From: Dryococelus australis
Lineage: Eukaryota > Arthropoda > Insecta > Phasmatodea > Phasmatidae
DNA: 64,000 nt
Assembly: GCA_029891345.1 (NCBI GenBank)
Contig: CM056997.1
Coordinates: 215,923,212 to 215,987,211, forward strand
Reading direction: 5' to 3'
Shown here: positions 3,819 to 59,800 of the stretch, in pieces
How positions within the stretch are numbered: position 1 is the first letter of the stretch
How the letters are laid out: every line of letters starts with the position of its first letter
Notes under the pieces: model-generated
The model's database searches: none
What the model saw: only the letters and a program-made list of their open reading frames with translations
What the model was told of the DNA's origin: nothing
Position numbers and translations under genes: made by a program

Positions 3819-3824
3819 CACATA

Positions 3825-4161: not shown

Positions 4162-4211
4162 TAAGCACGAATAAAATCAATTGATGTCTAATATGATAAC
4201 GACCATGGCAA

Positions 4212-7878: not shown

Positions 7879-7896
7879 TGAAAAAAAAAGAGTGAT

Positions 7897-8642
7897 ACTA
7901 TGAAAGAGCAGCAGCCCGTCACGAAGCGCGAGTCGCCTTATCGCTGATATCGTTCGCAAGTCATGTGTGAGCTTAAAGGAAAGCATATATATAACAAAAA
8001 GCAATCGCTCATCGACATCATAAACAACAAGCGTATCTATGGTGGTAAAAACGTTTATGTGATTATCGACGAAGGAGGCCCGTGTTTCAAGGCTAAAGAC
8101 GTTGCGAACATACTCGAGTATGCGAATCTGTGAGAAGCAATCAGAGAACATGTTAGAGAAAAGCATAGGCAATTGTACGCTGATATAGAGATGTTGTTAA
8201 ATATGCATCCACATACCATATTTATCAATGAACCAGGGTTGTAAGCATTGATCAAGAAGTCAAAGATGGCAGCTGCAGGACAATTCCAGGATTGGGTATA
8301 TGAAGAAGTGCTACCGTCCATACGCAAATACGACGAATACAAGTTAGAGCAAAAGTACAAACTGCTACTGGGTGACTTGAATAATGAGATTACAGTGGCT
8401 AAAGATGTTATAGATAAATATGCAATACCATTTACTAGTAATTTCGATAAGCATCACCAGTTTGTGCTCATCTACCCCGGCGGAATCGACTACTATGCTA
8501 CCAGATGTCAAAAGTGACTGGTGAGTGTAAGACTCGATGCTATTAGGCAAGAGTCCCCCAGATGCAAGTCTGCTGTCTTTCGATAACGTCAATCCCGTAA
8601 CACTGTACAATCTCATGAAAGAGCTTTATCCATCACGTCGAT
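7897..8642 (+). pseudogene. BRO-like protein (Bro-N domain), broken copy 1
   Basis: Relative of the baculovirus-repeated-ORF (BRO) family, DNA-binding proteins common in large insect DNA viruses. Visible Bro-N features in order: INNKRIYGGKNVYV, CFKAKDVANILEYAN (the characteristic W/CF-x-AKDVA-x-IL segment), AIREHVREKHR, then FQDWVYEEVLPSIRKY near 8285. A C-terminal domain follows (FDKHHQFVLIYPGG...TRCQK) and, after a frameshift, a short tail with VNPVTLYNLMKE. Internal stops occur after LEYANL and INEPGL. It sits directly downstream of PolB on the same strand. The family role (replication/transcription modulation) is known only broadly. Confidence 0.82.
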
Positions 8643-8669
8643 AGGAAACTGTTTCAGCATGACGTTGAG

Positions 8670-8990
8670 TCGCGATGACCTGATTGCCGATATTGTGTGT
8701 ATAAAATCGTTCGCGAGCTTAAAGGGATCCATAACAAAATTTAATCGTGAACAACAAGCTTATCTACGGTGGTAAAAAGGTGTACCGACTAAGAGAATAA
8801 TCCGTGGTTCAAAGCGAAAGACGTTGTGAGAATACTCAAGTATGCAAATACAAAACAGGCAGTCATACTAAACGTCGACGACGATAGAGACATCCATCAA
8901 AACTTGTGTGTACAAAGGGAGTCTGTGCGACAGACCCCCTTTAATACCCATCTGCACACAGTTTTTTCAGATGCTATTAAAAACACTCTT
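8670..8990 (+). pseudogene. second, truncated BRO-like copy
   Basis: Tandem partial repeat of the Bro-N domain: segments VNNKLIYGGKKVYRL, then NPWFKAKDVVRILKYAN, closely matching the upstream copy, followed by DDDRDIHQ. It ends in a hairpin region at 8914-8942 and lacks the second half of Bro-N. It probably arose by tandem duplication and then decayed. Confidence 0.72.
8914..8942. terminator. 13-bp stem hairpin after BRO copies
   Basis: Arms 8914-8926 and 8930-8942 (AAAGGGAGTCTGT / ACAGACCCCCTTT), 3-nt loop, one mismatch. It overlaps the decayed end of the second BRO copy, just upstream of the convergent capsid gene. Function as an RNA 3'-end or terminator signal is inferred from position. 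Confidence 0.5.
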
Positions 8991-9026
8991 ATAGTGCTAT
9001 TAAAGAAAAATGATTTAATAGTAAAT

Positions 9027-9056
9027 GTTTTTAATGGATAATCATCCATTAAAAAC
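9027..9056. terminator. perfect 13-bp hairpin between convergent BRO and capsid genes
   Basis: GTTTTTAATGGAT (9027-9039) pairs perfectly with ATCCATTAAAAAC (9044-9056) around a 4-nt loop. It lies 24 bp beyond the capsid stop on the other strand. Similar AT-flanked hairpins occur at other convergent junctions of this element. Confidence 0.6.
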
Positions 9057-9079
9057 TAATAACCATACATGTTTGCACA

Positions 9080-10341
9080 CTATTGGACTTCGGTGATTCT
9101 TTTACTTTTAACATCATAAATTAGGTTTCTTTGGTTCACAAGTACCACATTACAAATATTTGAAGCCGATATTGGTTTATTAAAATCAAATCTAAGTTTC
9201 AGATTAGTTCGATCTTTTACAATAGCAGTTTTTCTGTAAGAACAATCAATTACATACAATAGTATTTTCTCAATTAATGACCCAGAGTTTAAACACAGTT
9301 CATTATTACGATTGGGGGTATCTAGTTTAGTCTTTGAAAGTCTAAAATCATTGTAAGCAATAAACATATTATCGTAAATTTTATCATCAATGTTTAAATT
9401 CCAATTCTCTTTGGGAAACACTTAATTCCTTCCATTCTTAATATAAATATTTTTCACAAAACACAAGTCAAACATTGAACCATGTGTGAATTGCCCAGGA
9501 TCAACTTTTCTGCTGTGCTGGAAACCAACAATGACAAAGTTTGGCATATCGAATTGGATTGAATTGAACTGATATTTTATATCAAACTGAAATGCGTTTG
9601 CATTAGTAGGTACTGGTTTTTCAAGACATTGCCAATAATTAAAACTAATTGGAATTTTGGGGTGTTTGTATAATTTTGCTTTAATTTAGTCTCCAAAATA
9701 GGATCGTATTCAACAATTGGCCACAGAATTTCAAATTTTTCAATAACAATTTTACCAGCATCTGGTAAATTATCTGCATCATCAGATCCATCTGCTTTCT
9801 TAGGAGGTCTTCTGTAAAAAGAAACATCATCATTAGAATTTCGAATGGATGTAATCTTGTACCCACCTTTCCAGAATATTTCATGACAATCTCTCATAAA
9901 CCCAGACAAATATCTTAATGGATAGGTAATTTCGTTACACTTATCTTTCCTAACATATTTACCTAGTTCTATCCCCGACATTTGGAAGTACGCTGATTCT
10001 GTTTCCGAATCTAGAAATGTATGCATAATTGTTGAAGTGATGCCAGGGTTGTCAATACTTTCGATTATACAATCATGTTTAGAGATCTCTATTCTTGAGA
10101 ACTGGAATGAGAAGAAATTCTCACAAAGATCAATTGTTGAAGTTTTTTCATAATCTGTAGTTGTATCTCTTTTAGTTAGCTTATACTGTTGGTATACATA
10201 AGCTTCATTTGGGTGTGAAAATACATCGCCAATAGGAATATCAAACTCAATGCATTTGTTGTATTCATTCAAATTATTTTTTGTTTGATCGTTTGGTGGA
10301 AATGACTGACGCTCATAACTTTCAATTTTTTGTTGATCCAT
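9080..10341 (-). pseudogene. MCP: Polinton major capsid protein (double jelly-roll)
   Basis: Shell protein of the virus-like particle. The first 254 codons (10341-9577) are open, starting MDQQKIESYERQSFPP and running through a CIEFDIPIGDVF segment, a FFSFQFSRIEISKH segment and ILWPIVEYDP, which I recognise as hallmarks of arthropod Polinton/adintovirus capsid-like proteins. After a frame break near 9577 the C-terminal part continues and a second open piece (9421-9080, 113 aa) carries the last jelly-roll region. The same protein is recognisable in elements B and C. The start is favoured by TATATAATAAATG directly abutting the ATG. About 420 codons in total, shorter than giant-virus capsids but in line with these elements. 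Confidence 0.8.
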
Positions 10342-10351
10342 TTATTATATA
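10339..10351 (-). promoter_or_regulatory. TATATAATAAATG start motif of capsid gene
   Basis: On the minus strand TATATAATAAATG ends in the capsid start codon. The same or a close motif precedes other structural genes of the element (11445-11457, 15017-15023, 15047-15052, 12888-12894). Resemblance to the poxvirus late-promoter TAAATG is an analogy, not proof. Confidence 0.5.
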
Positions 10352-10597
10352 GAAAAAAATCTTAAACAACTACACTTTTCTTATCAACCCCAGAATTATG
10401 ACTACTATCAAAACCAAACCATTTAATTAGGAGCTTATTTTCTTTCCTTCGCAAAACTTTTTTTCATTAAGTAGTCATTATCATATTTGGTCTTAAGCAG
10501 CTCTCGCTCATAGAAATTCCTTTATTAAGTTCATTCTTTTAATATCTTATTCTGTATGTCGTGGGGTTTGTGTAGAATACTTCACACCTCAAATACG

Positions 10598-11400
10598 TCA
10601 GTGGACTAATTTGGTGTATATACTATTTGAAAACAAATTTTTACTTTTACTTAAACGAACTTTATCTCCTATTGCAAACTTAGGTTTATCCATTTTTCTT
10701 TCTCCTCCATACATATTGATTAGAGTAGAACTTTCATTCTTTGCATTTACATTGGTGGGTTTCATTCCGATTTTACTGTGAACAGTGTTATTGTATTCAC
10801 TTATTAATTTAGGTAATATAGGCACCCATTTATTGATTCCCTGCACACTAAATATCTTCCACATTTTCTTCCCCAATGTTCTATTAGATCTTTCTACAGT
10901 ACTAGCTTTCTTTTCACTGTATGTTGAATAGTGTGTTATGTTGTTATTGGCTATTAATGCCTTAAATGATTTATTGTAAAATTCTTTCCCTTCTTCTGAT
11001 TGTAAATGCATGGGTTTGCGATCATTCAAAATAGTTTTAAATGCTAACATAATATTTCACCAGTTTTATCTTTGATTGGTATTGCCCATGCATATTTGGA
11101 AAAAACATCTGTCATGGTTAAATATATATTTAAACCCTTTGTTGATTCTGTGTATACATTTTAAAGATCCAAAATTCAACTCAACCAAATCAGCTTGCCA
11201 AAGATCATCGATACCATAAGATAGAACAGTTCTTCTCAGGAAGTTTTTTCGTATTGGTTTATGATTTTCATTTACAATGTCGTTTTATACTCCCTCCAGT
11301 GAATATCGAGTTATTCGTAACACGACATCTACAAACAGCTTTAATTCTTTCTTTGTTTTTATTTCTAAGTTGATATGAACTTAGTGTATTTTTATGCATC
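10598..11400 (-). pseudogene. INT: Polinton retroviral-type integrase
   Basis: Integrase (rve/DDE family) that inserts element DNA and makes the 6-bp duplication. Reading leftward, a cysteine/histidine-rich N-terminal part (11400-11270) is broken. The core shows DDLWQADLVEL near 11190 (first Asp). An open 150-codon piece (11050-10598) then carries HLQSEEGKEFYN, where the second Asp is expected but Glu-Glu is seen, and KKASTVERSNRTLGKKMW with the catalytic Glu. The C-terminal FAIGDKVRLSKSK is the SH3-like start. No chromodomain is visible here, unlike the copy in element B. It lies just upstream of, and on the same strand as, the capsid gene. Confidence 0.87.
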
Positions 11401-11444
11401 TGATACAGTATACATTTGAGTTATCATTGTTCATCTTATTTATT

Positions 11445-11457
11445 TATATAATAAATG
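11445..11457 (+). promoter_or_regulatory. TATATAATAAATG start motif of DUF8207-type gene
   Basis: Exact TATATAATAAATG, the ATG being the likely original start of the downstream gene. An A8 run four codons later now puts this ATG one base out of frame with the rest. Confidence 0.5.
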
Positions 11458-12453
11458 AGACAAAAAAAATTGCAAACAATATAGAGAAGAATATAGAGAG
11501 AAGAAGATAGATAATTGAAAAGTTTAAAACTTTTAGAAAATTTCGCCAAGATGAATATGATAAAATAAAAAACATGATCAACCATTGATAGATGCGATAG
11601 AAGATTTGGGGCAAAAAATTGGACATGTAACAAATGAGTATAAAAACTTAATAAAAGAACTTGTTCCATTTGCTGTTAAGAATTTAGACAACCCACAGAC
11701 ACAAACAGGAACATCTTTTGAAAGAAACCTGTTTGGTAAAACAGGCACTGATGAACGCTATGACAATGGTATTAAACAAATTGGCAATGACGATGAATGC
11801 TATGACGATGGCATCAAACGCATTGACGATGATAATGAACACTATGACGAAGCGTTGGGGAATTTTAAAACTGATATCTCACAGTTAACTAACACTACAA
11901 CACAACATTTGTTGATAAGATAGTGGCCGATTTCTTAATTGACTGCAAAGACGATGTTTTTGGACTAAGGGCTGATAAAGGTAAATTGAATATTGGTGAT
12001 AGCGAAGTAACATTCATCAATGACAAATGTACTGTAAAGGGTCGAATATACACTGGAACTGATGGTTTGATTAAATTACTAACTCATAAGAAAGTTACAG
12101 AAAAAGACTACACTGCAACCGACCTTGAAAACTATAATCGTATCCTAGCAGATACAAACACAGTTTTTCAAAGCAATGATCCAAGCTTGGGAACGTCAAA
12201 ATCGAGTAAAGGGAATAAATTGAAAATTATTGTTAAACCTATTTACGGTTCGATTAAAAAGAAACATCTCTCACCTAAAAAAGAGAAGGGTATAAAGAAG
12301 TATACAGACTATCCTAAAGAATACATATGGATGGGTGATGTTAGGATACTTATTGATCGACTTCTCGTTATTTATGGTGAAGAGAATACTGGAAATGATT
12401 ACTATTACAATGAAAAAGTTGGAATATTGAAAATTCTCAACAGTAAGTTTTAG
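11455..12453 (+). pseudogene. DUF8207-type Polinton protein
   Basis: Conserved arthropod Polinton protein of unknown role, probably virion-associated from its place among structural genes. The N-terminal part is basic and helical (KFKTFRKFRQDEYDKIKN). From 11585 the frame is open (112 aa) and holds three imperfect 13-14-residue acidic repeats (DERYDNGIKQIGN, DECYDDGIKRIDD, NEHYDEALGNFKT). After a stop/frame change at about 11922, an open 176-aa piece (11923-12453) carries a FGLRADKGKLNIGDSEVTF segment and an YTGTDGLIKLLT segment, which I recognise as the DUF8207 pattern, and ends with RILIDRLLVIYGEENTGN. Family naming is from memory. Confidence 0.72.
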
Positions 12454-12463
12454 TGACTTTGTT

Positions 12464-12871
12464 GTGAATAATCCATATCTGATACGAATGTTAAACAGAA
12501 TACCACATACTTTTTGGGAATCGGAGCATTACAGAAAAGGGTTACTCAATGATGTAAAAAATTCACTACCTTTTGAGTTCCATGCACCCGGTTATCAGTA
12601 CTTAGGTCCAGGTACTAGACTAAAAGAGAGAATCAAGTGTGGTGATAAACCCATTAATCTACTAGATGCGGCTGCAATGGAACATGATATAGCTTATCAT
12701 TAACATAAAGATGTAGCTGAAAGACATGTAGCTGACAAAGAACTAGAAAAGAAAACGTTCAAAAGATTGTTAAGTTCAGATGCTGATCTCAATGAGAGAT
12801 TGTGGGCTGGTGTTACTGGATCTGCCATGCATATTAAACGTAAGCTTGATTGCGGAATTAAAATGAAATGA
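12464..12871 (+). pseudogene. phospholipase A2-like (parvovirus VP1-type) protein
   Basis: Small protein with the PLA2 fold used by parvovirus capsids to breach endosomal membranes. Visible: Ca-binding-loop-like GYQYLGPGTRL and active-site helix DAAAMEHDIAYH with the His-Asp dyad and downstream Tyr. A stop (TAA) follows directly after HDIAYH. The frame then continues open (HKDVAERHVADKELEKK) to GIKMK and a stop at 12871, so it is a single-lesion pseudogene of ~135 codons. The basic C-terminal tail could be a DNA- or capsid-binding tail. The catalytic residues look intact, so loss is by the nonsense change. Confidence 0.82.
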
Positions 12872-12891
12872 TAAAATATTTCTTAAAATAA

Positions 12892-13317
12892 ATGAAAGTA
12901 AAAAACATTGTATTTTAAGTTCCTAACAATGAGTTGGAGGGTTTGAATATTGATTCTTTCCTAACGAAAGACCAACTGGATTGTAAAAACAAGAAATCAA
13001 AGGAGGACAAAGGGATGACTATCACAATTTGAGTTCCATAGCTTAAGGAAATGTCCAAAGAAATGAAAACTGGAAATGGTTTGACAGTTCACAAGGGTGG
13101 ATTTTTACCCTTAATTTTTGCAGAATTTGGAGCTCTAGGAGCATTAGCTAGTGGTGCATCATCTATCGCTACATCAGTAATTAATGCTAAGAAGAAAAAC
13201 CAAGAATTGGAAGAACAACACAGACATAATTTAGCCATGGAGGAATATGGAAAGGGATTGAAGAAAGTCAAGTGGGGTAAAAATGTTAAAAAAAGTAACT
13301 CCACTCAGAAACTTTGA
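12892..13317 (+). pseudogene. pX/core-like virion protein
   Basis: Likely small virion protein. It starts at AAATAAATG (ATG 12892), with an N-terminal part (INIDSFLTKDQL-like) closely paralleled in element B, and three stops before 13051. The rest is open: HKGGFLPLIFAEFGALGALA is a GG-x-LP hydrophobic segment like the membrane-active C-terminus of adenovirus pX, followed by a charged helix (EELEEQHRHNLAMEE type) and a lysine-rich end. The GG could be a protease processing site for the adjacent adenain-like enzyme. The last 35 bases overlap the protease start. Confidence 0.65.
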
Positions 13318-13716
13318 TATTGATCAATTGGTAAAAAAATTAAACATAAAAAATTTTTGGGGTGTATTTATGATCGATGAGATACTTAACACGCCACTCG
13401 ATAATGAATGTGGGATTGTTAACTAGATGTTTCGACAAACTCTGGTACACACTGGGTATGCTATTGGAAAAAAGAAAACGACAAATATTATTTTTATTCA
13501 TTTGGCAGAAATACACCACGACAATTAATAGCATATCTCGGAACTAATATTTTTTATAGCGATGATAGAATTCAAAATTTCAGTCAAGTAACCTGTGGTT
13601 ATTTGTGTGTAATTGTGCTAAATCACTTTTCACATAATTTTAAATTTACAAAAATTATTTCACTATTACTAAAGAATGGATATATGTGGAAATGCATTAA
13701 TGAGCTCTTGGATTGA
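13283..13716 (+). pseudogene. PRO: adenain-like cysteine protease
   Basis: Virion maturation protease of Polintons (C5 family). The first 47 codons are open (LRNFDIDQLVKKLNIKNFWG...ECGIVN), then a stop/frame break near 13424. The second part is open and shows GTHWVCYW (catalytic His), DKYYFYSFG where the usual acidic residue of a YFDSFG-type motif is replaced by Tyr, and IQNFSQVTCGYLC with Gln seven residues before the catalytic Cys. It ends at TGA 13716. Same layout in element B, where the Asp position is retained. Confidence 0.82.
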
Positions 13717-14260
13717 AGATCAAATTAAAGAACACGCGGACAATGATACAACTACTGAGAAGATTAATCCTAATGATTTAGTTTCCAACACACAGTTCGT
13801 CTTTATAGCCACACTGACAAGAAATAAAAGATCATTGGATAAAATCTATCTTATTTACTTGGAAGTAGATAATAATATAGATTTTGAACAAAAAAGACTG
13901 AGACATGTGGGAGATCCCATTGCACCGATGGATGCAATCAATTTAGAGTACTATCAGAAAAACAGGATTGACATTATTCGTTTAGTTGGAAAATACAGTC
14001 CAAAAGAAAAAGTATTTTACTTTGGTAATCAAAGAGAATATTTTTTTATGAGAGATGAAACTATAGTTGAAATAATCATAAAACCAGAGAAATATAAAAG
14101 TGTTACTAACTTATACCATGAACGGAAAAATATTGACATGTATAAAACTTTTGAAGTATACTCTGACTATATGATATATTTTAAAATACCAAAAGCCCGC
14201 AATGTACCCGAAGGTACAATTGTGTTTATTGAAATAGTTATGTTATACCAATACATTTAA
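13700..14260 (+). CDS. unidentified Polinton structural-region protein, intact frame
   Basis: An intact 186-codon frame if read from ATG 13700 (MSSWIEDQIKEHADND); an upstream in-frame ATG at 13676 lies inside the protease gene and is less likely. Not recognised by motif. The N-terminal ~20 residues are helical and acidic; the rest alternates hydrophobic strands and charged turns (FVFIATLTRN, KIYLIYLEVD, IVFIEIVMLYQYI), suggesting a beta-rich virion protein. It overlaps the protease end by 17 bp. It is one of very few element A genes without a lesion. Confidence 0.6.
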   Translation: MSSWIEDQIKEHADNDTTTEKINPNDLVSNTQFVFIATLTRNKRSLDKIYLIYLEVDNNIDFEQKRLRHVGDPIAPMDAINLEYYQKNRIDIIRLVGKYSPKEKVFYFGNQREYFFMRDETIVEIIIKPEKYKSVTNLYHERKNIDMYKTFEVYSDYMIYFKIPKARNVPEGTIVFIEIVMLYQYI

Positions 14261-14278
14261 AAAGATCAGATTATGTTG

Positions 14279-14307
14279 GTTTTTATGGAAGTACTTCCAT
14301 TAAAAAC
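14279..14307. terminator. hairpin between convergent structural gene and ATPase
   Basis: Palindrome ATGGAAGTACTTCCAT with flanking GTTTTT...AAAAAC, 29 bp in all with one bulged base. It lies 18 bp after the stop at 14260 and 45 bp before the convergent ATPase stop. Confidence 0.6.
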
Positions 14308-14351
14308 ATACTTATAATCTAAGAATTTAAAAAGTCTTTAATTTTATCATG

Positions 14352-15019
14352 CTACTTACTATTATTTAACTTACGAGTCATATCTATTGTAATAAAACCA
14401 TTTTCATTATTCCAACATTTTGAGCAAGTCTCCCTAAATTTCTCAAATGACATATCACCACCAAAAAAATCACTATGAATATGTTTAAGATTTGTATCAC
14501 CTCGTCTGAATATGCAAAGAAAATTGGTTTTATCTCTTATAAGCTGCTTAGTTACTTTTGAGTATGTCTGGGCTAAATAGAAACAATCAATATCTTTGTG
14601 TCTACCGCGAGTAAAGTAATCCCTTACCATATTTTGATTTTCAAGTATGATGAAATCGAAAATAACTATAGACTATTTATGACATTAAGTTACATCAACC
14701 ATTTCTTCATTTGATGGAAAGAAGTATGATATCGGTTTATTAAATAATTTTGATGCTACATCTATATCTTTCTTTAAATTGATATATTTTGGTGATCCAG
14801 ACTTTTTGAACATACATAGAGAGTACCAAAGTCCAACCATCCCTGAGCATATATAAAATTATCTATCATATGTGTAGTTTTTCCACAGTTACTAGGACCC
14901 ACTATCAAACATCTAATATTACTAGGTAATAATTCACCATGACGTTTTGTCGATACAGTCTTGTCTGGTATTCTTATTTTAATATCCCAGTCTACATGTT
15001 TCGTGTTTTTCTTGCTCAT
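14352..15019 (-). pseudogene. ATP: FtsK/HerA (A32-like) genome-packaging ATPase
   Basis: ATPase that drives DNA into Polinton capsids. The N-terminal open piece (15019-14774, 81 aa) starts at AATAAATG and carries Walker A IVGPSNCGKTTHMI. Between 14774 and 14640 the frame breaks; the expected Walker B strand is visible as IVIFDFIILENQ, with the second acidic residue changed to Phe. The C-terminal open piece (14630-14352) has TRGRHKDIDCFYLAQTYSKV, the sensor region with the conserved Gln, and KTNFLCIFRRGDTNLKHIH. Transcribed divergently from the penton-like gene across a 30-bp spacer. Confidence 0.87.
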
Positions 15020-15052
15020 TTATTAATACATTCTTTAATAATATGATAAATG
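15017..15052. promoter_or_regulatory. divergent start region of ATPase and penton-like genes
   Basis: Two start codons face outward 30 bp apart: minus-strand ATTAATAAATG (ATPase) and plus-strand TATGATAAATG (penton-like). The spacer is pure AT apart from two bases. The short distance implies a shared bidirectional promoter. Confidence 0.5.
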
Positions 15053-15772
15053 AGTAAAGTATTCAAACTAACATAGCAAATCAGTGTTGAAGATGAGACT
15101 ACTTTGCCCTTTAGATATAGAGGGGCGCTCATTGGCTTTAGTTCAGTTCTATACTACTTATCTAACACATAACATTATCTATGGGAGAAATAAGCTATAT
15201 TTTGTGGGTCATAATGAAATGGAATCAGCAATTGATATTCCAGTTGGTCAATATAACGTAAAAGATCTTGAAAAAACTATAAAAGTAATTTTTTCATTTA
15301 GTGTAGATTCAATGGGCGGGAAAGAAAATTATGTATCTTTCGAGCTGGATAAAATAACAAACAGTGAAAGTAAAATGTATGCTTAAATTACTGTTTGGAA
15401 AGCGGGGTCCAATAGAAAAACTTTTGGGTTTCGTAAAAAATAAACTCTGAAAGAAAATGTGGACAATTATGACGATACAATTCCAAAATTTGCTCAATTT
15501 GAAACAATAAATATAAACTGTATATAATAAATGGTATGATATTAAAACATGATGAATATAATCACAGAGAAACTAACATAATTACCACTTTTAAACCAAG
15601 AACAATATTTGGATTTGGTGATACGATCTATTACGAACCAGCTTATCCATTATTTTTTCCAGTGCAAACAAATCAAGTTAATGAAATAATAGTTGGAATT
15701 AAGGATGAAAAAGGTAAGTTAATTAACTTTGATTTGTCCGAAAGAACAGTGGTATTAGAGATGATACCATAG
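15050..15772 (+). pseudogene. penton-like minor capsid protein
   Basis: Probable vertex/minor capsid protein. Pieces: MSKVFKLT start at 15050, then in another frame an IEGRSLALVQFYTTYLTHNI region and a segment with SAIDIPVGQYNVKDLEKTIK (about 15220-15280). The last, open piece (15536-15772) has IFGFGDTIYYEPAYPLFFPV and ends EIIVGIKDEKGKLINFDLSE, the C-terminal pattern I associate with Polinton penton-like proteins. Element B has a clear homologue at 56104-56806 in the same place next to the ATPase. The single-jelly-roll assignment is inference. Confidence 0.62.
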
Positions 15773-15819
15773 ATATTTTTTTTTTGGGTTGGAAGTAGTC
15801 AAATTCTACATATATTAAG

Positions 15820-15843
15820 GTTAATAGTTTTTAAACTATTAAC
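15820..15843. terminator. perfect 11-bp hairpin after penton-like gene
   Basis: GTTAATAGTTT (15820-15830) and AAACTATTAAC (15833-15843) pair perfectly with a 2-nt spacer. It lies 48 bp beyond the penton-like stop. Confidence 0.6.
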
Positions 15844-16097
15844 GTTTCATGTGATAAATATGAATAATATTGCTATAGAAAGTGCAATGAAAGATAGAAA
15901 AAGAATTCAATTTTTTGGCTACTTTAATATATCGAATTTGGAGATGTGTATCTAAATTTTTAATTAGACTATGTTGTAGCACATTGCCAAAGTCAGAGTG
16001 ATAATTGTGTTTTAATGATTGGATAACCATTAAAACTTTATAGTGATATGAACACAAATAAAAATCAACTGATTTCTAATTATACGACGACGATCAT
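15844..16097. other. gene remnant zone with a second hairpin
   Basis: Short frames on both strands but nothing recognisable. A hairpin at 16009-16036 (GTTTTAATGATT / AACCATTAAAAC, 11 of 12 paired, loop GGAT) marks the boundary toward the convergent small OB-like gene, whose stop is at 16098-16100. Confidence 0.5.
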
Positions 16098-16391
16098 TTA
16101 CTCTTTAAAAAACCGAATAGAATGAATTTGTTTTACACCACAATCCACCATTCCATCATATGCAAAACTTATACCTTCACAATTAACATCATTTAAAACT
16201 TATTCACTGAAAATCTGAACATATTTGTCTGGTAAGGTTACTTTAGACTTTCCAGAAATAATTGCCACTTTGTATTCATGCCGTGTATCATTTATTTCAG
16301 CATGGTTTATGAGATAGGACTGTCCAATTGTAAGTTCGGAAAGTTTCTTAAATTGTTTGGTTCTATTTAATACATTTAGTAACTGATCCAT
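16098..16391 (-). pseudogene. small OB-fold-like conserved protein, one internal stop
   Basis: About 97 codons starting MDQLLNVLNRTKQFKKL directly at the inner edge of the right TIR. Segments: LTIGQSYLINHAE, TRHEYKVAIISG and VTLPDKYVQIFSE, a beta-rich pattern with an LP-x-(K/R)-Y motif that I recognise from small arthropod Polinton proteins and that suggests an OB-type nucleic-acid-binding fold. A TAA follows IFSE; the frame then continues to FAYDGMVDCGVKQIHSIRFF and stops at 16098. A homologue sits near the TIR of element C (61840-62121). Transcription from the TIR-borne TATATAATAAA is likely. Confidence 0.62.
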
Positions 16392-16815
16392 CTTTATTAT
16401 ATACAACATTTTATTTTTACGTATTCAAATTTCCTGAGACACCCTTTTTTTTTTCAACTACGCCCAAACGCATGTTTTTACGCGTATTTTTGCAGATGCA
16501 CTCAAACGCAAAGTTTAACACAACTTTTTTTTCTAATGAGTACGATCTAACCAACGTAACTTTTAAAACCACTTTTTTGCAGTTGCACCCAAACGCAACT
16601 TTTTGTCACTTTTTTTGCAACTGCTCCCAAACGCAACTTTTTACACGTTTTTTTTTTTTTTTTGCGGTTGCTCCCAAACGCATCTTTTTGAGTCACTTTT
16701 TTTGCGGTTGCTCTCGAATCGGCATTTGATGGTTTTCTGATGGCTTGAGAATTTCATTTACAGTTGGTTTTCTGATAACTGGGGGCTGTGCTCGAATCGG
16801 CATTTCTATACTATT
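16392..16815. repeat. right terminal inverted repeat of Polinton A
   Basis: Complement of 3825-4161 with extra internal subrepeats: the block GCAACTGC-CCCAAACGC and neighbours recurs about every 45 bp between 16480 and 16720. Inner edge TTTATTATATACAA (16392-16405) is the complement of the left TIR's TTGTATATAATAAA. Confidence 0.93.
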
Positions 16816-16849
16816 TACATAAAATAAATAACTCAAAAGAATTTTAAAC

Positions 16850-43789: not shown

Positions 43790-44910
43790 CATTTTCTATA
43801 CAAGTAATCAATAATATACAATGGTCTTGGCCCCCACAATAATAACAATTGGTATTACCATCAGAGTTTGGAGATGGCTTATAATAATGTTCATTATTTC
43901 TATATATTTTATCTAGTTTTGTTTTGGGATTTCAGAAGTCGTTATAAGCAAGATACTCTTTATCACAAAAATTATTGCCAATATCTAGATTCTAATTTTC
44001 TTTTGGAAAAATGTCATTTCTTCCATTTTTATCACAAATATTTCTTAAATTACAGTGATCAAACATATAAGCGTGCACTTCTTGATCAGCACGATGTTTC
44101 TATTAGTTTGAAAGCCTACAATTACAAAATCGGGCATACCAAATTGTAAATTATTAAAATTGTCTTTTATATCAAAGCTAAAAACAAACTTCTTTTTGTA
44201 AAAATTGTCACTAATCATAACTAATTGGCATTTTAGGATTTTTTTCTTTAATTGCGTGGTTGTGTTAGGTTCATATTCAACAATAGGCCACATAATTTAT
44301 AATTTTAAAATAACAATTTTACCTCGAAAACCAGCATAATCTAATCAAGTGAACAATCGTCTTTCTTTTTTTGATAAACAAATAAACAATTGTTATCAGA
44401 TGAATTACGAATAAAAGTGATTTTATAGCCACCTTTCCAATAAACTTCATTGTTATCATGTATAAAATAACAGAAATATAAGAGGGTAGATCATTTCATT
44501 GTGTTTAACACTATGAGTAGCTTTTACTCGATAATAATCATTAACACTACTTAATTTTAATTAACTTTGTTCACCTGGAGAACTTAACAAAGTATTCATC
44601 ACTGTCAATTGTTATTCCTGGATTATCAAGAGCATCAATAATTTGTCCATGTTTTGAGATTTCTACTCTATAAAATTGATAAGGAAAAAAGTTAGAACAA
44701 ACATCAATATTATCCACTTTATCATATATTGCTTCATTTCTTTCTTCAACTCTTTTTAGTAAACGACACTGTTCATAAACATAAGCATCATATGGGAAAG
44801 TAAAGCATGCTCCTATAGGAATATCAAATTCAATTATATTATTGTAAACATTTCAATTGCCCTGGTTTTATCAGTTGGGGGAAAAGTTTGTCTATCAAAG
44901 TGCTAAATAT
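43790..44910 (-). pseudogene. MCP: element B major capsid protein, broken
   Basis: Homologue of the capsid gene at 9080-10341. Leftward: FDRQTFPPTDKT near the start (~44900), an EFDIPIGACF-like segment, FFPYQFYRVEISKHGQI near 44680, LDNPGIT, then MWPIVEYEPNTTTQLKKK (open 44293-44045) and FGMPDFVIVGFQTNRNI. Frameshifts about every 100-200 bp. It abuts the terminal repeat, unlike in element A. Confidence 0.78.
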
Positions 44911-49857: not shown

Positions 49858-50138
49858 TTATATATTTTTCTTTTCTTTTTTTATGGCCTGTACTATATAT
49901 CACATGATATTTGAACATCTACCTGATGATACTCTAACTGTTATTAAGGTTTCTAAAAAAATTTATTATAGTTAACCTTTTGATGTAAAAATATGTTGAT
50001 GGATTGGTGCCCACAATACGAGTGCAAGAAAGTCACCAAAAATAATAATATACAAAATAAAAATACTAAAAATTGGCGATTAGTTCAGAAAAGTAAATGT
50101 TCTATAAATAATTCTTATAAAACAACATTTAAAAAAAA

Positions 50139-51070
50139 ATTCCTTATTGTAAGAGAAGGAATAATAAATGAATTATATAAACTAGCAACAAGAAATTTTC
50201 CAAGAAGAAAAGTAATTTCGTATGAAATTAATGATTTATGCAAATTGATTTTGTTGAGATGGATACTGGCTTTTTAAAAGAAATACCACACATAAATGAA
50301 GGATATAAGTATACAATGACAATTATCGATGTTTTTCAAAAAATGTATTTGCAATACCAATTAAAGATAAAACAGCTAAACTGTAGCAAATGCTTTAGAA
50401 TGTATGCTGATAAAAAGAAAGCCACGAAATATGAAATGCGACATTGGATCCGAATTTTATAGTAAAATATTTATAGAACTTTGCGAAAGTATAACATCAA
50501 TCATTATTCTACATCCAGTTAACTTAAATTCAGTGTTGTAGAGAGATATAATCATACAATGAAGAATGAAATGTGGAAAAATTTTTGCTTTAAATGTCAC
50601 TTATAAATGGATAAATATATTACATGATTTAGTAAAGTAATACAACAATACCAAAAACAGAACTATTGGTATGACCAGAGGTATGACCAATTGAAGTTAA
50701 TAAGAAAATAGAAAAAAAATTTAATGCAACAAGATTTTGCGAATATGTTTACTAAGATGAAATATAAAGTTGGCAATATTGTCCACATTACCAAAAATAA
50801 ACTATTTTTTAAAAGGGTTATACTCCTAATTGGACAACAGAATTATTTTTGAGGATTTAAATTATGATGTGCCTACTTACAAACTAAACGATAAAAATTG
50901 AGAAGATATAAAAGGCACATTTTATGAATACGAAATTATGAAAACTAATTATCCTGATGAATGTTTGGTTGAAAAAGTCTTAAAAAACAAAAGGTGATAA
51001 AATATATGTAAAATGGTTAGGTTTTGATAACTCTCATAACTCTTGGATTAATAACACATATGCTTTGTGA
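50139..51070 (+). pseudogene. INT: element B integrase with C-terminal chromodomain
   Basis: Segments: RREG-like start, KVISYEINDL, then QIDFVEMDTGFLKEIPHIN (first Asp, ~50240), YTMTIIDVFQK, MKCDIGSEFYSKIF (second Asp, ~50430), SVVERYNHTMKNEMWKNF (catalytic Glu, ~50538), KVGNIVHITKNKLFFKR. The end, in one frame, is a chromodomain: CLVEKVLK, then DKIYVKWLGFDNSHNSWI (~50997-51050), stop at 51070. The chromodomain probably guides integration to chromatin. Transcribed opposite to the capsid, unlike element A. Just upstream (49883-49972) a short frame contains FEHLPDDTLTVIKV, not identified. Confidence 0.85.
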
Positions 51071-51099: not shown

Positions 51100-51310
51100 A
51101 AGTGGAGGCATTTCGCTGCCCCATATAAATGTCCATAGATTTATAAGAGCCATATTTTCTTATTGATGGCATAACATCTTCAATATACATAATTAAAAAA
51201 CTTAAGTAATTTTACAATGCAAACTTAAAATAAATTCATATAAACCATGTTCATTTATGTAAATTGCTTTACCACTACTATAGTTGAATTGGGGCCCAAT
51301 TTGGGTCCGA
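51100..51310 (-). pseudogene. BRO-like fragment
   Basis: Minus strand GKAIYINEHGLYEFILSLH and, after a frame change, IEDVMPSIRKYGSY, the second half of Bro-N. It is preceded and followed by unrelated AT-rich sequence. Confidence 0.65.
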
Positions 51311-51959
51311 ACCAATTCTGATAGAAAAGCTTTATATTTTGCAGATCATAATTTTGTAATGGTTTTTATTGGGTTGCATATTTAAAGGGGGGGAACGATC
51401 CATTCCTCAGAATAATTTCAAAAATATTTCTGTTTTGTTTTCTCTAACATGATCTCTATGAAACTTTCTTGTGTTAGTATAAAAATTAGCTTCTTACTCA
51501 ATTCCATGAAGATTATTAATTTAATTAATCAACTGTTGTAGAGTATAGTTATTTCTGGCAATTTTAAAATAGTTACGAAAATGCACAATATGACTATTCA
51601 GTGATTCTTTCATTCTTTGATATAAATTTATATAATTTGGAATATATTCAAATCTAAATAATAGTTAACAATTGGGATGTTTATCTTCAATTCTATCCAA
51701 CTGTCTTTGAAGATCTTTTTTTGAGTTCTGATGACAAAATGATCATATTCACAGTCATCAAATAATTTTAAAACAACAAAAGTTAATTTAAATTTTGATT
51801 TTGTGTTTGTTGTACAGTATGAGAGGCCATTTGTCTGATTTACTCATTTCTGCGAGCTTTTACATCTAAAGCCATATGCACTGTCTGTCTTAAATTTTCC
51901 ACACGTTCACATTGAATGCTATTTATATCTTAAATGATTAACTCCAATTTCATTCATTT

Positions 51960-52365
51960 TTATATTCTCTATTTGGCCTTTGTAAAAAATGCATTATATC
52001 TTTATGAATCTTGTACACACCATGTTTTCTCATTGATGGTAAAACTTTTATACTAACCCATTTGGTAAATTTTTCAGCTAGGGGCATATGTGATCTAAAT
52101 ATTAACTTATACAGAGTCCATGCATTGATAAATATAGCATTCGGCTGTGTGTTTAAAGTTGTTCCATTTTTAGGGATGCCTTTAAGATGCGTAAATGTAT
52201 TTTTATCATCATTATCAACAATATAATATAACGCATTTTGTTGTTTTTTTGTATTCCAAAAGTCTAGTTACATCAGTTCCATTAAACCAAGGAATAATTT
52301 CCTCAACAATAATCATAAAAACTTGTTTACCATTGTAAATAAGTTTGTTGTTATTAATGTTTAGA
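51960..52365 (-). pseudogene. BRO-like protein (Bro-N) in element B
   Basis: Minus strand, in order: INNNKLIYNGKQVFMI, PWFNGTDVTRLLEY, frame change, NALYYIVDNDDKNTF, THLKGIPKNGTTLNTQPN, AIFINAWTLYKLIF, MPLAEKFTKWV and VLPSMRKHGVYKIHKDIMHF. This is an essentially complete Bro-N domain, related to the copies at 7897-8990. With 51100-51310 it forms a tandem pair. Confidence 0.8.
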
Positions 52366-52899
52366 ATTGACTACATTTTTACATGCGAAATTAGTGCAAG
52401 TGAAGTTGTCGAGTAGTAAATAGGTGTTTTATATATATTCTTTTTTAATTAGGAAGTGAAAAATTATAGAAAATAAAATTAAAGAATACAGACCAGATTA
52501 ATTGATAAATATACTATTTGGCTGTGAATTTAAAGGTGTCCCTTTGTTTTGGGACAACTTCATGATCAGTAAATTAATTTTTTATCATCGTTAGCAACAT
52601 AATAGATCTTAAACCAATTTAGGTTGCATATTTGAAGGGGTGGGTAAATCGCCTATCCCTATATTTCTATATGATTGTCTACGTTAGGAAGCCAAAATTA
52701 AAGAAATAATTTTAAAGAATACGGACCAGATTCATTAATAGATATTGTATGTGCTTGTATACTTAAAGGAGGGGGAACAATTCGTTCCTACCTATATTTT
52801 CATAAATATATATATTTTCTCTAATGTGATAAACCAGATTAAATAATGTAAACAATATTTTTCCATTGCCTTTCGAACCTAACGAATGGTTAGGGTTGA
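52366..52899. other. AT-rich spacer with short repeated blocks
   Basis: TTGCATATTTRAAGG-GGG blocks at 52622 and 52760 resemble one at 51373 (GGTTGCATATTTAAAGGGGG), and AAGAATACRGACCAGATT occurs at 52482 and 52717, so short sequences have been duplicated around the BRO genes. No gene recognised. Confidence 0.5.
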
Positions 52900-54240
52900 T
52901 ATTTCCATATTTTTATGTAATTATATAGCTCTAAGGAGTTAAATTTTCTAAATCATTAACAACATATTTCTATTTATTTATAATTTCGTTATATGATTCA
53001 TACTTTATGTCAGAAATGGAAATGCTATTTTTACCTCTGGTCAATTTCTTTGTAAATTTATTATATTCGCCGACAGTTTCATTGGTAAAGAAATACAGTA
53101 AACCGTTTGTATATATGAAAACAAACTATCATATTTGGCAAATGAGGAAATTTCTTGCCAATTAAGCCATTCTATTTTATTTGGAAACTACACTCATGTA
53201 CTTCAGAATAATATGCCTTTTCATAGAAGATAAAAAGTTTTTCCCGAATATGAAATAAAAACAGAATTTATATTATATTCATCATTTAATCCAAGTGAAG
53301 AAAGTCTTTTTGTATGTCTTTTAATAGGATGATAACTTGGATAATCAACCATATCAATTTTATCATCAACAAACAGAACTAACTCACCCAAAGGTATTTG
53401 GTGTAAAAAAAGATTGTTGAAATCACTCTGTAAAAACATGACCCAATTTGTAATAAAAAATGGTTTATAGATTATATTGTTGTCATTCAAACTTTTTATC
53501 CAAACATTTTTGCTGTAAAAATATGCAATTTGCCAACATTAAATAAACATTTTTTTGTGTATTGGTTTTTACACAAATCAATTGGTTCATTTTCATTAAA
53601 ATTATTTTGTGTGGGTGGGCCATAAAAGTTTTAAATGTCGTCTGGTTGCAAATCAAACATATCATTATTAAGAATTGGATGCATGGTTGCATTTTTATCA
53701 TTTGTATGTTGTAAACCCAATCCATGGCCGATTTCATGAATTAGAACTGCTAGTAAATTAAATTTATTTTCAGGAGTGTTTCTCCATCCATTATGCCAAT
53801 GTTCTTGGTTATTTGTATGAATTTAAACAATACCGTTTTTTTATTTGGAAAAATGCATGAGCTAGTGCACTGCCATGTGGAAATAATGCATAAGGGCAAA
53901 ATCCACATAATCTCTGTTATTTATGTTGGTTTTTTATAATATATAACTATGTCTGAAGATTGTGTAGTGTAAACAAATTTCAGATTTGTGATTTTGCCAA
54001 ATGTTAAAAGAATTCTTCAGCTAACTTTGTGATTGATTTATTTCTATATGTAAAATGACAGTTTAATGTTTTTTATTCCATTTGTTGATGGTTGAGTAGC
54101 TACCAAGTATATCATATTTAACACCACAACTTGGATTATTTAATAATATTAAGTGTTTCTTCATCGAGTTTACCATTTGAAGAAATGTTATTATTTCTTG
54201 AAATATTCTTAAAGAATTTTTGAAAGTGAATTTACACCCC
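52900..54240 (-). pseudogene. matrix-metalloproteinase-like gene (propeptide, catalytic, hemopexin parts)
   Basis: A zinc endopeptidase of the matrixin family inside element B. Minus strand, in order: propeptide-like helix and NNPSCGVKYDI at 54138-54108, matching the cysteine-switch position (free Cys in a P-x-C-G-V context); STINKWNKKH; then PHGSALAHAFF at 53880-53848; EHWHNGWRN; HEIGHGLGLQH at 53738-53706, the HExxHxxGxxH zinc site; MHP Met-turn at 53684-53676; LQPDDI. Hemopexin-like blades follow: LHIFTAKMF, GELVLFVDDKIDMVDYPSY, INSVFISYSGKTFYLL (to 53221) and VFIYTNGLLYFFTNET (~53090). At least five frameshifts. A 5' signal peptide is not visible because a compound microsatellite lies at 54236-54329. 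Whether it was cargo of the Polinton or a host copy that landed there is unresolved. Confidence 0.82.
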
Positions 54241-54244
54241 CCCC

Positions 54245-54332
<88 letters not shown>

Positions 54333-54655
54333 TTAAAAAGTTGATAACACATTCTGTTCCATTCTCTTTTTTGGACGGCACAAAATTTATATTTGTGATA
54401 GTGAGAATGATTATGTAAAGCTTCATTTATATACAAAAATAATTTTAACAGGATAAAGATATCTTTCAAAATTTAAAAATATATTTCAAAATTTAAATAT
54501 ATAACTTAATTAACCCCAACCAATATTCATAAAAATTACAAAAGGTTTACAGATATTTCTATCATGCCAATGTCTCAATCTTATATTTTTCTGGCCTTAT
54601 TTATAGCACCTGCAAAACTCCTATGGAGAAACCCATCGCCTCTCCACTCAGTCAG

Positions 54656-54724
<69 letters not shown>
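54236..54724. repeat. compound and TA microsatellites
   Basis: 54236-54329 is C(n), (CT)n then (TA)n; 54659-54724 is (TA)n. The short frames rich in Tyr-Ile here are artefacts of the repeats. 54330-54658 between them holds nothing recognised. Confidence 0.95.
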
Positions 54725-54726
<2 letters not shown>

Positions 54727-55011
54727 CAGAGAGGTGGTGTGTTTTCTAGCTTTTATTTTTTTTTATTTCTTGTATTCCATTCTCATATAGTGTAGGTGCC
54801 TTGCACCATATGAGAAACCCCAGCTATTCATCTGATATACTATAGTGTAGCATAGAGAGTATTTTTTGCTGGGGCATGAGAATTACAATTTAGTTTTCAT
54901 CAAAGCTAATACATTACTGTATTTGAAAGAGCATTGTTTTTTGGCTCAAATTTAGCACGACTTGGTTGATAATGTATTAGTGTGACCACCTACACATTAT
55001 TAAATTACCAT

Positions 55012-55080
55012 CTCGACTCGGGTTTGAACCCCCGAATTTCGGGTTGGAAGTTGTGCATCCTGTCACTGAGCCATGGCGAC
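55012..55080 (-). repeat. tRNA-like SINE head
   Basis: Minus strand GTCGCCATGGCTCAGTGACA with box A TGGCTCAGTGACAGG and box B GGTTCAAACCC. The clover-leaf is imperfect, so it is a tRNA-derived repeat rather than a tRNA gene. 55081-55510 shows no other feature. Confidence 0.6.
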
Positions 55081-55510
55081 AAGAAGCGTGAGTAGATTGT
55101 GATAAAACATATTGTGCTGCCTCATCGAGTGTTCGCCGCAACGCTAGTAGATAGCGACACATTTGCGCTAACCTTCTTCCTGTTTGTGATGAAAGTTTGC
55201 TGAAGTTCAGTCATGGACGACTGTGCAGATAATATTTTTCATGTCGCTAGTAGATAATGCGGCAGTCGCAAAGGAAGGCAAGGAAAATTCGCTGACAGTT
55301 CACGAGGCACAGCAAGCTTTATGATAATATTATCCTGTTGCTAGTAGATAGGGTGGTCGTCGGCGAAGTAGATAAAGAATTCTTGTATACAATTCAAAAA
55401 ACAGAGTTAGAATATAAAATAATTAATTTTTTCTTTGTACTACCCATTATTCATTAATATAATCAAATCTAAATTGATAAAACTGTATGCTTGATTCCAG
55501 TGATCAGATC

Positions 55511-56137
55511 TCTTTAAATTTATCATAAGCTATGTCCCCACCAACAAAATCGTTATATACATGATATAAGTTTGTCCCATCTTGTCTAAATATACATAGA
55601 AAGTTCTTATTGTCTCTCACCAATTGCTTGGGCACTCTCGAATATATTCCTGCAAAATAAAATACATCAATGATGTGGTGTTGTCCTCTAGTGAAATATT
55701 TTTAAATGACATCATGATTTTCTAAAATGATATCATCAAATATAACTAGAGACTCGTTTTCACTTTGATCTAAGGGAATCATTTCACCATTGTTATTATA
55801 AAAAGAAACATTTTTTCACTAAATTTGTTGGCTATCAAATCAAAATCATTTTGTAATTAAATACATTTTGGTTGGTTTAAACTTTTTGAGGAACATACAA
55901 TTTATTGAAATTTAGTCATTAGGTCTTATAATTAGAATTAATCATCAAATTGGTTTTTTCACTGTTACTCAGACCTACAATAATGTCCATTATATTGTAA
56001 GGCAAAAGTTCGCCATTATTTTTATACTTAGAATTTTGTTCTGTAATTAAAACAGACACCCCAATCAACTTTATTAATTTAATAACAATCATTGTATACA
56101 AAATGTATAATGAAGTTAAAAAACAATAGTTCCACAC
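55511..56137 (-). pseudogene. ATP: element B packaging ATPase
   Basis: Minus strand: GELLPYNIMDIIVGLSNSEK, where the Walker A GxSNSGK has Glu in place of the last Gly; frame change; ENESLVIFDDIILENHDVI with an intact Walker B Asp pair; one stop; KYFTRGQHHIIDVFYFAGIY; VRDNKNFLCIFRQDGTNLYH; VGGDIAYDKFKEI and stop near 55511. Less decayed than many neighbours. Divergent from the penton-like gene, as in element A. Confidence 0.85.
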
Positions 56138-56806
56138 TAAAGAAAAAACTTAATAATTATATAATTTATCAAGATAATTCAATTGCTTTCATTAGTTTTC
56201 ATGTAAAAATTTTTGCTCCTAATATAGACTATAATACCTTAAAGACAATTGAATTATTGAGTGATGTGGTTGACAAAAACAAAGTTATAACTATTCCTCA
56301 AGGACAATACAATATTGAATCTTTAAAATAAACTATAAATTCATTTGAACTGTTTTCAACTAATAAAATTGAATTAACAACAAACAGTGTGAAAAACGGA
56401 AAATCTATAAAAACTAGTTTTGATATTAAACTTGATGATCGATTATCCGATATGCTTGGTTTTGAGAGAGATTTGCTTATTGAAAAAGAAAATGTTGTCT
56501 TTGGTACTAAGTTACCTAATTTTAATCAATTTACAACAAAAAATTCAATGTAACTTGGCATATTGTATGTTTATAAAATATGATGAACCTAATAACTTAG
56601 ACACATACATAATTGCTAGTTTGAAACTAAAAACTATACTTGGTTTTGGAGATTATATTATTGATTAGCCTCCCTACCCAGTTTTCTATCAAATTTATAA
56701 TGAGGAGTTTCATTACATTGTTTTAGAAATTAGGGATGAAAATGGTAACCTAATTGATTTTGATGGGGCTGATATCGACATCGTTCTTGAAACTAAAGAT
56801 GTTTAA
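56104..56806 (+). pseudogene. element B penton-like protein
   Basis: First open piece to 56331 with KVITIPQGQYNIESLK, an in-frame stop, then LDDRLSDMLGFERDLLI to a stop near 56552. After a frame change: LKTILGFGDYIID, one stop, PYPVFYQIYN, VLEIRDENGNLIDFDGADID. Matches 15050-15772 segment for segment. Confidence 0.7.
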
Positions 56807-56834
56807 AATATCGAACTTTTCTTTCAGAAATAGT

Positions 56835-56869: not shown

Positions 56870-59800
56870 AATTATACATGTTGATTCCATACTGTAAAGT
56901 AACTATTTTAATTTATAGTATAATCATTTTGGTATCACAAGGATTTAATGCAATTTTACTAACTTCGATTGTATATATTTTGTGTTTCTCACTCCTTCTT
57001 AAATTCATTGTTCTATATTGTAATTTTTCATCAGACACACATTTATTATATTCGTCAAATGTAATTCTATTGTTAACTACACCATATTTCACACTTTTAG
57101 ATAGCTTATTTCTTCTATTATCAACTCTTTATGCATACATTTTTGTTCTTAAAGCAATAAATTCTTTCATTATTTTGCCAATCCATTTTTTTCTTTCAAT
57201 TTGCCTAAAACATTTTATTTATTCGAGACATGTTATAGATATTATCATTTGGATTATCACTTGTATCAAATTTATCTAACATTGTCTTCATACATTCGTA
57301 AAAAATCTCCTGTTTTATGTTATAAATATGCACATTGATATCTTGATAGCACACTTCAATTTTATCTCCACATATGGCTTTCATCACTTTATAATGAAAA
57401 TCATACATTCATTCTTTTGTTATGTCTAAAATTGACACACCCACATAAAGAGGCTTATTAAATATTACTTTTGTTTTATTCACATGTAAGGCGGCTAGGT
57501 TCTCGTTAAATATAGTGCTTCTTTTGAAATTTGGTTTTACTACTAATTTTTCACAAACTTTTTCACTTGAACCTAGTCTTATATCTTCTCTGTTTCTGAT
57601 ATTTTCCATTGTTTTACCAAGCACAGGATTATTTGTCAATTTATAAAAATTAGTTCTCATCAATGTATTCAAATATGTATAAATCTTTAACGAATCAGAC
57701 TGATTAAACTTCAATATTCTATGTATTTTAGTAAGTTTTAATACATTATTTAGACACTGGTTCAAATTGCGATAGTGTATTGAATACTATTCTGTTTTAT
57801 GTAAAGTTGTTAACAATATAGATTGATTTGTTCCTGGAACTGCCTTATTTTCATGACAAAATGGAATATTTTTATGTGAATTATGTAGTTCTTGCGGATA
57901 TTCTAAATCAACTTATAATATGTAGCTATGTTGTAAACCATTCTTCAAATTTAATATATATTCTCGCCAAAAATCTAAATTAAATTCGGTATTATTAAAC
58001 CATTCAAGATTTGGATTAAAATATTCTAATTATTTGTTATTGGCTTTAACATATCGCTTACAAAATTGCGATATTCGACCTCTAATTCCTTTTTCTACCA
58101 TTAAAATGATATCAAAATCATGTAATAAATCTAATGGTTGTTTAGTCATTTTTAACAGTGCATCCCATGATAATCCTGGTTCTGTTAAATACCATGCTTG
58201 ATCTAGATAATATGCATTGATATCTGTATTTCTAAAATTTTCAAAAACATCTGCATTTCACTTTTAAAATATAAATCGTGATAATCCCAAATATTTTTCA
58301 CATTAAGTTGATTCCATACAAGTTTTGCGTGTTCATATCCATCGTCGGTTATATCAGATTCACTTAATTTGTTGTGAAATTCGTTCTATGGTGGAAGATC
58401 TATTTCTTTAAATATCTTCCACCTGTCCATATAACCATATTTATAAACACTTTTCTAATAACTACATATATTTTATCTTCTGTTTGGTTAAATTGGATAC
58501 TAATTTATCTAAACTGCTGGCCATAAATTTAAATGTATCTATAAACCTCATTTTTTAAATCATATCCTAGCTCTTAAATAAATTAGCATCAACCTAGCTA
58601 AGTTATGAAAATACATTGGAACAAAATTGGGTAATTTTAATTGGAGATTACAATTGTTGCATAATGGAATAGTAAATTTTCCATTTATATTACCATTACG
58701 ATGTACTTTTTATTTAGCTCCGTTTATTCGCATTCGCATACAGTACATTTCCTAGATTTTGTATGTTGTTTTTTATTCTTTTGTCAGTGTATGGATTGCT
58801 TTGATTTGCGAATATATTTCCCCAATCTCCTACTTCTTTTTTTGTTGCTTCTATAAAATTCTGATTTGCAAATGCGCCTCTATATACAACTGGAGGTTTA
58901 TAGTCACCATAACTAGATACAATATAATAACAAAAACCAGAAGCTTCGTGTAACTGATATTTCATTTTATATGATTTATGATTTAACTTTAAATCAATTG
59001 TATTTATTTGTGCCATTCTAACTTTACATCTTTCTTTAAGTGCCTCCTTATAAAAGCCATTATCAATATCATTCTCTGTTAAAACTGAATATTTTTAGAT
59101 TAATTCAATTTTTTTATTTCAATTGGATTTGGTTAATTGTTTACATTTTCTTTACAACTGATTCAAAATCTGCATATATTGCAAAAGGAACTTTCATTGC
59201 ATGTTTGTAGTTTTTAAATTTTATTAGTTTTCGCCTTTTAAAGGTAAACTGACTTTTACTGATTCATTTTTAGAACAGACTTATGTATGTTTATTTAATA
59301 TTTCTTGAGAATAAAAAAATTGAAGATACATATCGCATATATAAGTTTTACTTTTTTGTTATTTTTTTTTTGTGCTGAAAGCAATTTCAATAAATCTTTT
59401 ATCCAACAGTAATGCGAGTTTGTATCATCTTTGAAAAAAAATAAAGTAAATTTATATGTTTTCCCTTTTTGTTTAATGGATATACTGAAGACTTGCATTC
59501 AATAGATTAAACATTTATAGATAATCAATTTGGATTTCTATTTTTGCGTATAGTCAATTTTAATAGGATGTTCATATTTATCTAATAATTTTTCAATATT
59601 ACGACCCACATTCTTATATTTAGATACTCTTTGTGGATCTTTTTCTACTGGAAACAATGCAGACTTTATTGTCCAAAGAAAGCATTTTTGGCCTTCATTG
59701 ATCACATTAATGCATGCTTTAGTATTCTTAATTGCTTCTGGTAGTTCGATATAAGATGCTTCATTTAATGGATTATACTTATTTATAGCAAATTTCATCC

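Follow-up and report, generated by a model that had tools for sequence, protein, structure and literature searches.

The matrixin pseudogene

The window analysed here is a stretch of 64,000 nucleotides of Dryococelus australis DNA. Its minus strand carries a broken matrixin gene, which lies in a decayed Polinton-like element that we call element B. The features of the gene are as follows.

52950..54426 (approximate), minus: whole matrix metalloproteinase (MMP)-like pseudogene, from three-frame reading and sequence; limits and signal peptide by eye
54120..54168, minus: propeptide motif LDEET and cysteine-switch-like PSCGV, from a motif scan, in two different frames
53851..53868, minus: ALAHAF strand motif, from the motif scan
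53634..53822, minus: matrixin catalytic core, a single 63-aa open stretch with HEIGHGLGLQH and the Met-turn TMHP
52973..53538, minus: possible hemopexin-like region, open pieces of 105 aa and 51 aa, by eye

The core matched the Pfam family Peptidase_M10 (PF00413) with an E-value of 2.3e-14 and 54 bits over profile positions 88-151 of 159, the cut-off of this family being 24 bits. Among solved structures (PDB) the top match was MMP-16 (E = 9.8e-7, 32.2 bits), and MMP-20 was also among the best; 142 distinct sequences were obtained at E<=10, and the best 60 of these 142 were topped by MMPs. The HExxHxxGxxH motif and the Met-turn, which mark the matrixin domain of M10A and are common to prokaryotic matrixins as well, are both present. 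A zincin DNA pattern on viral contigs gave at least 120 loci, and 14 loci, of which 12 were new, came from a stricter MMP-like pattern, so that 132 loci were available in total, and these look like prokaryotic or phage matrixins. When the core was compared with 137 ORFs from the 132 loci by phmmer, 105 of the 137 were listed at E<=10, the best being L029 (31.9 bits) and L010 (31.7 bits); by tblastn, the best among the matches listed was again L029 (E 1e-8). Since the 31.9 bits of L029 are about equal to the 32.2 bits of MMP-16, the core does not discriminate: judged from its sequence, it is a matrixin whose animal MMP or prokaryotic/phage type is not separable by the core.

Upstream of the core, further motifs were found on the minus strand, and the whole series has the order of an MMP: LDEET at 54168, PSCGV at 54134, ALAHAF at 53868, HEIGHGLGLQH at 53738 and TMHP at 53687. 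It is LDEET, PSCGV and ALAHAF, upstream and in MMP order, that suggest the MMP label, and the animal-type label likewise leans on short motifs. The canonical MMP cysteine switch is PRCGV. In the window, a propeptide motif, a switch and a zinc motif follow one another once on the minus strand and not on the plus strand. Neither a propeptide-switch pair nor a zinc motif arose in 6 Mb of first-order Markov sequence that was simulated with the composition of 43.6-64 kb. Because the scan patterns were written after the sequence had been seen, the motif scan is supporting evidence and the weight of the identification is placed on the Pfam match of the core. The propeptide pieces alone gave no significant Pfam match (the LDEET piece reached E 0.26, with PG_binding_1) and no MMP among their matches in the PDB search.

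The gene is dead. LDEET and PSCGV are close together and in order but in different frames, the motifs as a whole are spread over different frames with stops between them in the three-frame reading, and no intact reading frame runs through the gene; therefore it is a pseudogene. Its approximate limits are a possible signal-peptide start on one side and the final hemopexin-like stretch on the other, and a microsatellite interrupts it at about 54240-54335. The distance from the switch to the zinc motif is 396 nt, too short for a large intron.

Blade-like phrases are visible by eye in 52973-53538, and we treat them as a lead only. Pfam Hemopexin gave no listed match for the 105-aa piece, the 51-aa piece or five sub-pieces, the PDB search of the hemopexin-like pieces gave no relevant match, and a single-sequence structure model of the 105-aa piece had a mean pLDDT of 40.8. 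Thus a hemopexin domain, which most but not all members of M10A carry, was not recognised in the submitted pieces. Decay may mask such a domain. The initial annotation had read here an MMP zymogen gene with hemopexin-like blades, and had proposed matrixin and hemopexin profiles as a check. Its matrixin core and its motif order on the minus strand are borne out, the former by the Peptidase_M10 profile, whereas the frame proved broken and the blades found no match with the Hemopexin profile.

Element B and its counterparts in the window

The features that surround the gene, and the second element with which they were compared, are as follows.

44048..44852, minus: major capsid protein remnant, sharing 56% identity with 9580-10341 of element A over 81 aa
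45773..46096, plus: PLA2-like domain, Phospholip_A2_4 E 1.7e-8
49984..50600, plus: integrase remnant, by pairing with element A
51953..52370, minus: BRO-N gene remnant, Pfam Bro-N E 4e-12 for 51953-52267
52449..52769, minus: further degenerate BRO-N repeats adjoining the 3' side of the MMP remnant, by blastn
54590..55370 (approximate), no strand: GC-richer insert between the MMP and ATPase remnants, a microsatellite and a SINE-like stretch, by GC and by tRNA-like boxes seen by eye
55507..56149, minus: packaging ATPase remnant, by pairing with element A
56411..56803, plus: remnant that pairs with 15503-15769 of element A, to judge from its position possibly a minor capsid protein
56916..59498, minus: protein-primed DNA polymerase B (polB) remnant, by pairing with 5223-7791 of element A
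3823..16817, no strand: element A, also Polinton-like, with inverted terminal repeats whose pieces were found by blastn

Element B occupies about 43.66-61.5 kb and has decayed counterparts of what we read as capsid, PLA2, integrase, BRO, ATPase and polB genes. The elements were compared by blastp of their stop-free pieces against each other and by gapped blastn. The ATPase remnant is 60% identical to element A over 63 aa (14355-14672) and 44% over 41 aa (14777-15019); the possible minor capsid remnant is 50% identical over 32 aa and 39% over 41 aa, the PLA2-like domain 47% over 76 aa, and the pieces of the polB remnant 31-63%, one of them 61% over 79 aa. The integrase remnant shares 70% nucleotide identity over 213 columns with 11063-11274 of element A, with short peptide matches as well. 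The ATPase, polB and integrase remnants are putatively so named from known motifs, by which polB presumably reaches about 59846; Pfam gave no polB, integrase or ATPase match for the submitted pieces. In the BRO-N gene remnant, 51953-52267 also matched an anti-repressor PHROG (E 2.9e-17), and the Bro-N match of 52218-52370 was below the cut-off (E 0.0032). In the adjoining repeats, 52475-52599 is 74% identical to 52098-52220, and 52684-52769 is 78% identical to 52449-52536 (blastn). Neither ARAGORN nor Rfam at gathering scores found a tRNA-like element in the SINE-like stretch. Next to the integrase remnant is an internally repeated coding-like stretch with YVDSKYN-type repeats (49059-49773), possibly of a fibre-like protein, and satellite arrays adjoin element B at 40027-43438 (unit of about 171 bp) and 36580-38407 (short unit, offsets spaced about 32 or 64 bp apart).

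Terminal repeats of element B gave no blastn match at E<=1e-6. Among the inverted pairs of the window, the best 25 of 100 by length all involve AT microsatellites, and between 43400-44000 and 59850-63200 the inverted matches were of 30 and 16 columns only (E 0.25 and 0.86). Since no terminal repeats were found, the limits of this decayed element rest on gene content and GC, and its ends are uncertain. A third element of the same family, element C, begins near 61.5 kb (61529-63994) and runs past the end of the window. Its capsid stretch (63570-63994) is 75% identical to 44240-44662 of element B (blastn), and a direct repeat of 128 columns (61529-61656) is 90% identical to 43664-43791 at the left end of element B.

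The inverted terminal repeat pieces of element A are 87% identical over 230 columns and 93% over 159 columns. Its Pfam matches include Phospholip_A2_4 (5.4e-10) and Bro-N (best 5.4e-9). Matches of its capsid piece (9580-10341) to DJR-like_dom (E = 2.8e-4) and of 10601-11056 to IS481 transposase (E 0.0018) were below the cut-off, and a structure model of the capsid piece had a pLDDT of 32.2. Elements A and B (3823-16817 and 43660-61500) share many genes, but these differ in order and relative orientation, with respect to the polB/BRO versus the ATPase and capsid blocks, so that either two families or a rearrangement is indicated.

No MMP was detected in element A, where the best match of 19 MMP-region pieces had an E-value of 0.21 over 14 aa. 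No second copy was found in the rest of the window either: the best match of the 19 pieces had an E-value of 0.035 (57750-57818), and that of the core piece 0.21 (15897-15938). These weak matches were rejected as chance.

Probable membership of the gene in element B

The MMP remnant is on the same strand as BRO, ATPase and polB of element B. Its 3' side adjoins the BRO-N repeats, and on its 5' side the GC-richer insert of about 0.8 kb is followed by the ATPase remnant at 55507. Its GC content is 0.272, compared with 0.266 for the right part of element B without the MMP and the insert (49000-52440 plus 55500-61500), 0.395 for the DNA between the elements (17000-39000) and 0.409 for the insert (54760-55370). 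The initial annotation had placed the gene between the integrase/BRO genes and the ATPase and had noted an AT-rich composition like that of its neighbours; the pairing with element A and the Bro-N matches agree with the former, and the GC values with the latter. Because both neighbours pair with element A, the strand is the same, the BRO repeats adjoin the gene and its GC matches that of element B, the MMP remnant is most likely a gene of element B that decayed together with it, as judged from one copy. Among the points against membership are that single copy, the MMP-free state of element A as far as detected together with its other gene order, the lack of terminal repeats among the matches of element B, and the host-type insertions in element B (47.2-48.9 kb, GC 0.435, and about 54.6-55.4 kb).

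These points bear on the main rival, that the processed messenger of a host MMP landed in a dead Polinton, decayed there and never travelled with the element. The space between the switch and the zinc motif, which has no room for large introns, would suit such a retrocopy, as would the single MMP copy and the other host-type inserts that break element B (including GC 0.409 at 54.76-55.37 kb). A target-site duplication around the gene alone would also speak for it, and an imperfect AT-rich direct repeat does flank the gene (15/17 bases, 52699-52715 and 54432-54448). However, this repeat is weak, and 7 of 40 shuffled versions of the flanks contained one as good, so that a target-site duplication is neither proved nor excluded by it. 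On the gene's strand, A-runs of 8 or more are absent from 52300-53050, so that this sign of a retrocopy is lacking, although old marks could have decayed; and the GC of the MMP is close to that of element B. We regard a host retrocopy as unlikely, though it deserves to be kept in mind. Less probable again is that the MMP came to lie between two Polinton fragments by accident, as a piece of another integrated insect virus, nudivirus-like or granulovirus-like, or of other DNA moved there by rearrangement. The gene order of element B, which differs from that of element A, indicates that the region may be rearranged, and viral MMPs with hemopexin do exist (PMC3280521); yet both neighbours of the MMP are Polinton-like with counterparts in element A, and BRO occurs in element A too. 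The check for other viral genes covered the pieces submitted to Pfam.

The similar scores of the core with L029, L010 and MMP-16 would also suit an element B that carried a matrixin of prokaryotic or phage type and no animal MMP zymogen. We consider this very unlikely, for LDEET and PSCGV stand upstream in MMP-like order, whereas upstream of the zinc motif of the viral-contig loci the string P[RKSG]CG occurs in 1 of the 120 loci listed (L043), and P.CG in none of the 14 loci of the stricter MMP-like pattern. As for chance resemblance in AT-rich DNA, neither the propeptide nor the hemopexin pieces reach significance by themselves, but for the core it is refuted by the Pfam match, and the zinc motif did not arise in the simulated sequence; as an explanation of the matrixin reading it has practically no likelihood left.

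Taken with these alternatives, element B was probably a virus-like transposon of Polinton type, and one of its genes, intronless and now decayed, would have encoded a secreted MMP-like zymogen. The claim of an MMP gene inside a Polinton is upheld in so far as a matrixin remnant with MMP-type motif order lies in a Polinton-like element; the gene is dead, and element A shows no MMP.

Known systems, possible role and shared features

Among IMG/VR viral contigs, a loci search gave no confirmed relative for the core of the MMP, for two pieces of the ATPase or for two of polB. Seven Polinton pieces of element A were compared with all 132 matrixin loci, and because the best E-value was only 0.042, those loci are taken to be without Polinton context. 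No report of a Polinton with an MMP was found in the open-licence PMC literature, a limited library from which absence of a description is not established; in a paper there that mentions Polintons, the word metalloproteinase refers to poxviruses. The term metalloprot- is absent from the main text of PMC8363768 and PMC10120064, which belong to the adintovirus/Polinton literature, and the term metalloprotein from PMC11071296 and PMC11071308.

MMP genes in large DNA viruses of insects, which the initial annotation had mentioned, are described in the literature. In HzNV-2, Hz2V068 is reported as an MMP with hemopexin and a signal peptide (PMC3280521). Compared by description, it resembles the remnant in its matrixin domain with HExxHxxGxxH, and it differs in its supported hemopexin repeats (E 6e-26) and in its 231-kb circular genome, which is no Polinton (PMC3280521). 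The mp-nase of betabaculoviruses is a viral MMP for which degradation of the basement membrane has been proposed (PMC4500397); like the MMP of XecnGV it is, again by description, a viral MMP but a granulovirus gene. Another paper describes MMPs that infected hemocytes recruit or activate, and no viral MMP is meant there (PMC11865517). Animal MMPs such as MMP-16 and MMP-20 are like the remnant in the alignment of the catalytic core and in motif order; the remnant differs from them in its PSCGV switch, its broken frame and its hemopexin region, which is not recognisable.

If the gene of element B, placed between BRO and the packaging ATPase on the same strand, was once intact, its product would have had a signal peptide for secretion and a cysteine switch that kept the enzyme silent. 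Upon activation it would cut the extracellular matrix. It is plausible, by analogy with the proposals for granulovirus and nudivirus MMPs, that particles could thus pass the basal lamina on their way out of or into tissue. The gene may have been captured from an animal host or acquired via another insect virus. A broader idea, which we put forward tentatively and which is rather doubtful at present, is that a lineage of animal Polintons encodes a secreted MMP zymogen as a fixed part of its gene set and thus consists of free viruses equipped for crossing tissue barriers, the gene having been acquired in convergence or by exchange with granuloviruses and nudiviruses.

If further copies confirm the gene, the MMP would be an unexpected Polinton passenger. 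MMPs in other insect DNA viruses and Polintons themselves are both already known, and an MMP in a Polinton would at most be a novel combination of the two. If the gene turns out to belong to the family, Polintons would join the insect viruses known with MMPs; this would indicate that Polintons behaved like viruses and moved between tissues or hosts, and it would point to an enzyme activity open to assay. Otherwise, a single dead gene lies in a dead element.

Known Polintons and adintoviruses have a gene set to which the putative polB, integrase, ATPase and capsid remnants of element B would correspond. Polintons/Mavericks have polB and a DDE integrase as hallmarks (PMC6431247), and a Drosophila-associated adintovirus of 14.5 kb has PolB, integrase, FtsK-type ATPase, capsid and maturation protease, two further adintoviruses being 13.3 and 13.9 kb (PMC8363768).

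Two further features are common to elements A and B. The BRO-N domains or their DNA are tandemly repeated in each of them (7948-9038 and 51953-52769), and both have the PLA2-like domain Phospholip_A2_4 (12431-12700 and 45773-46096).
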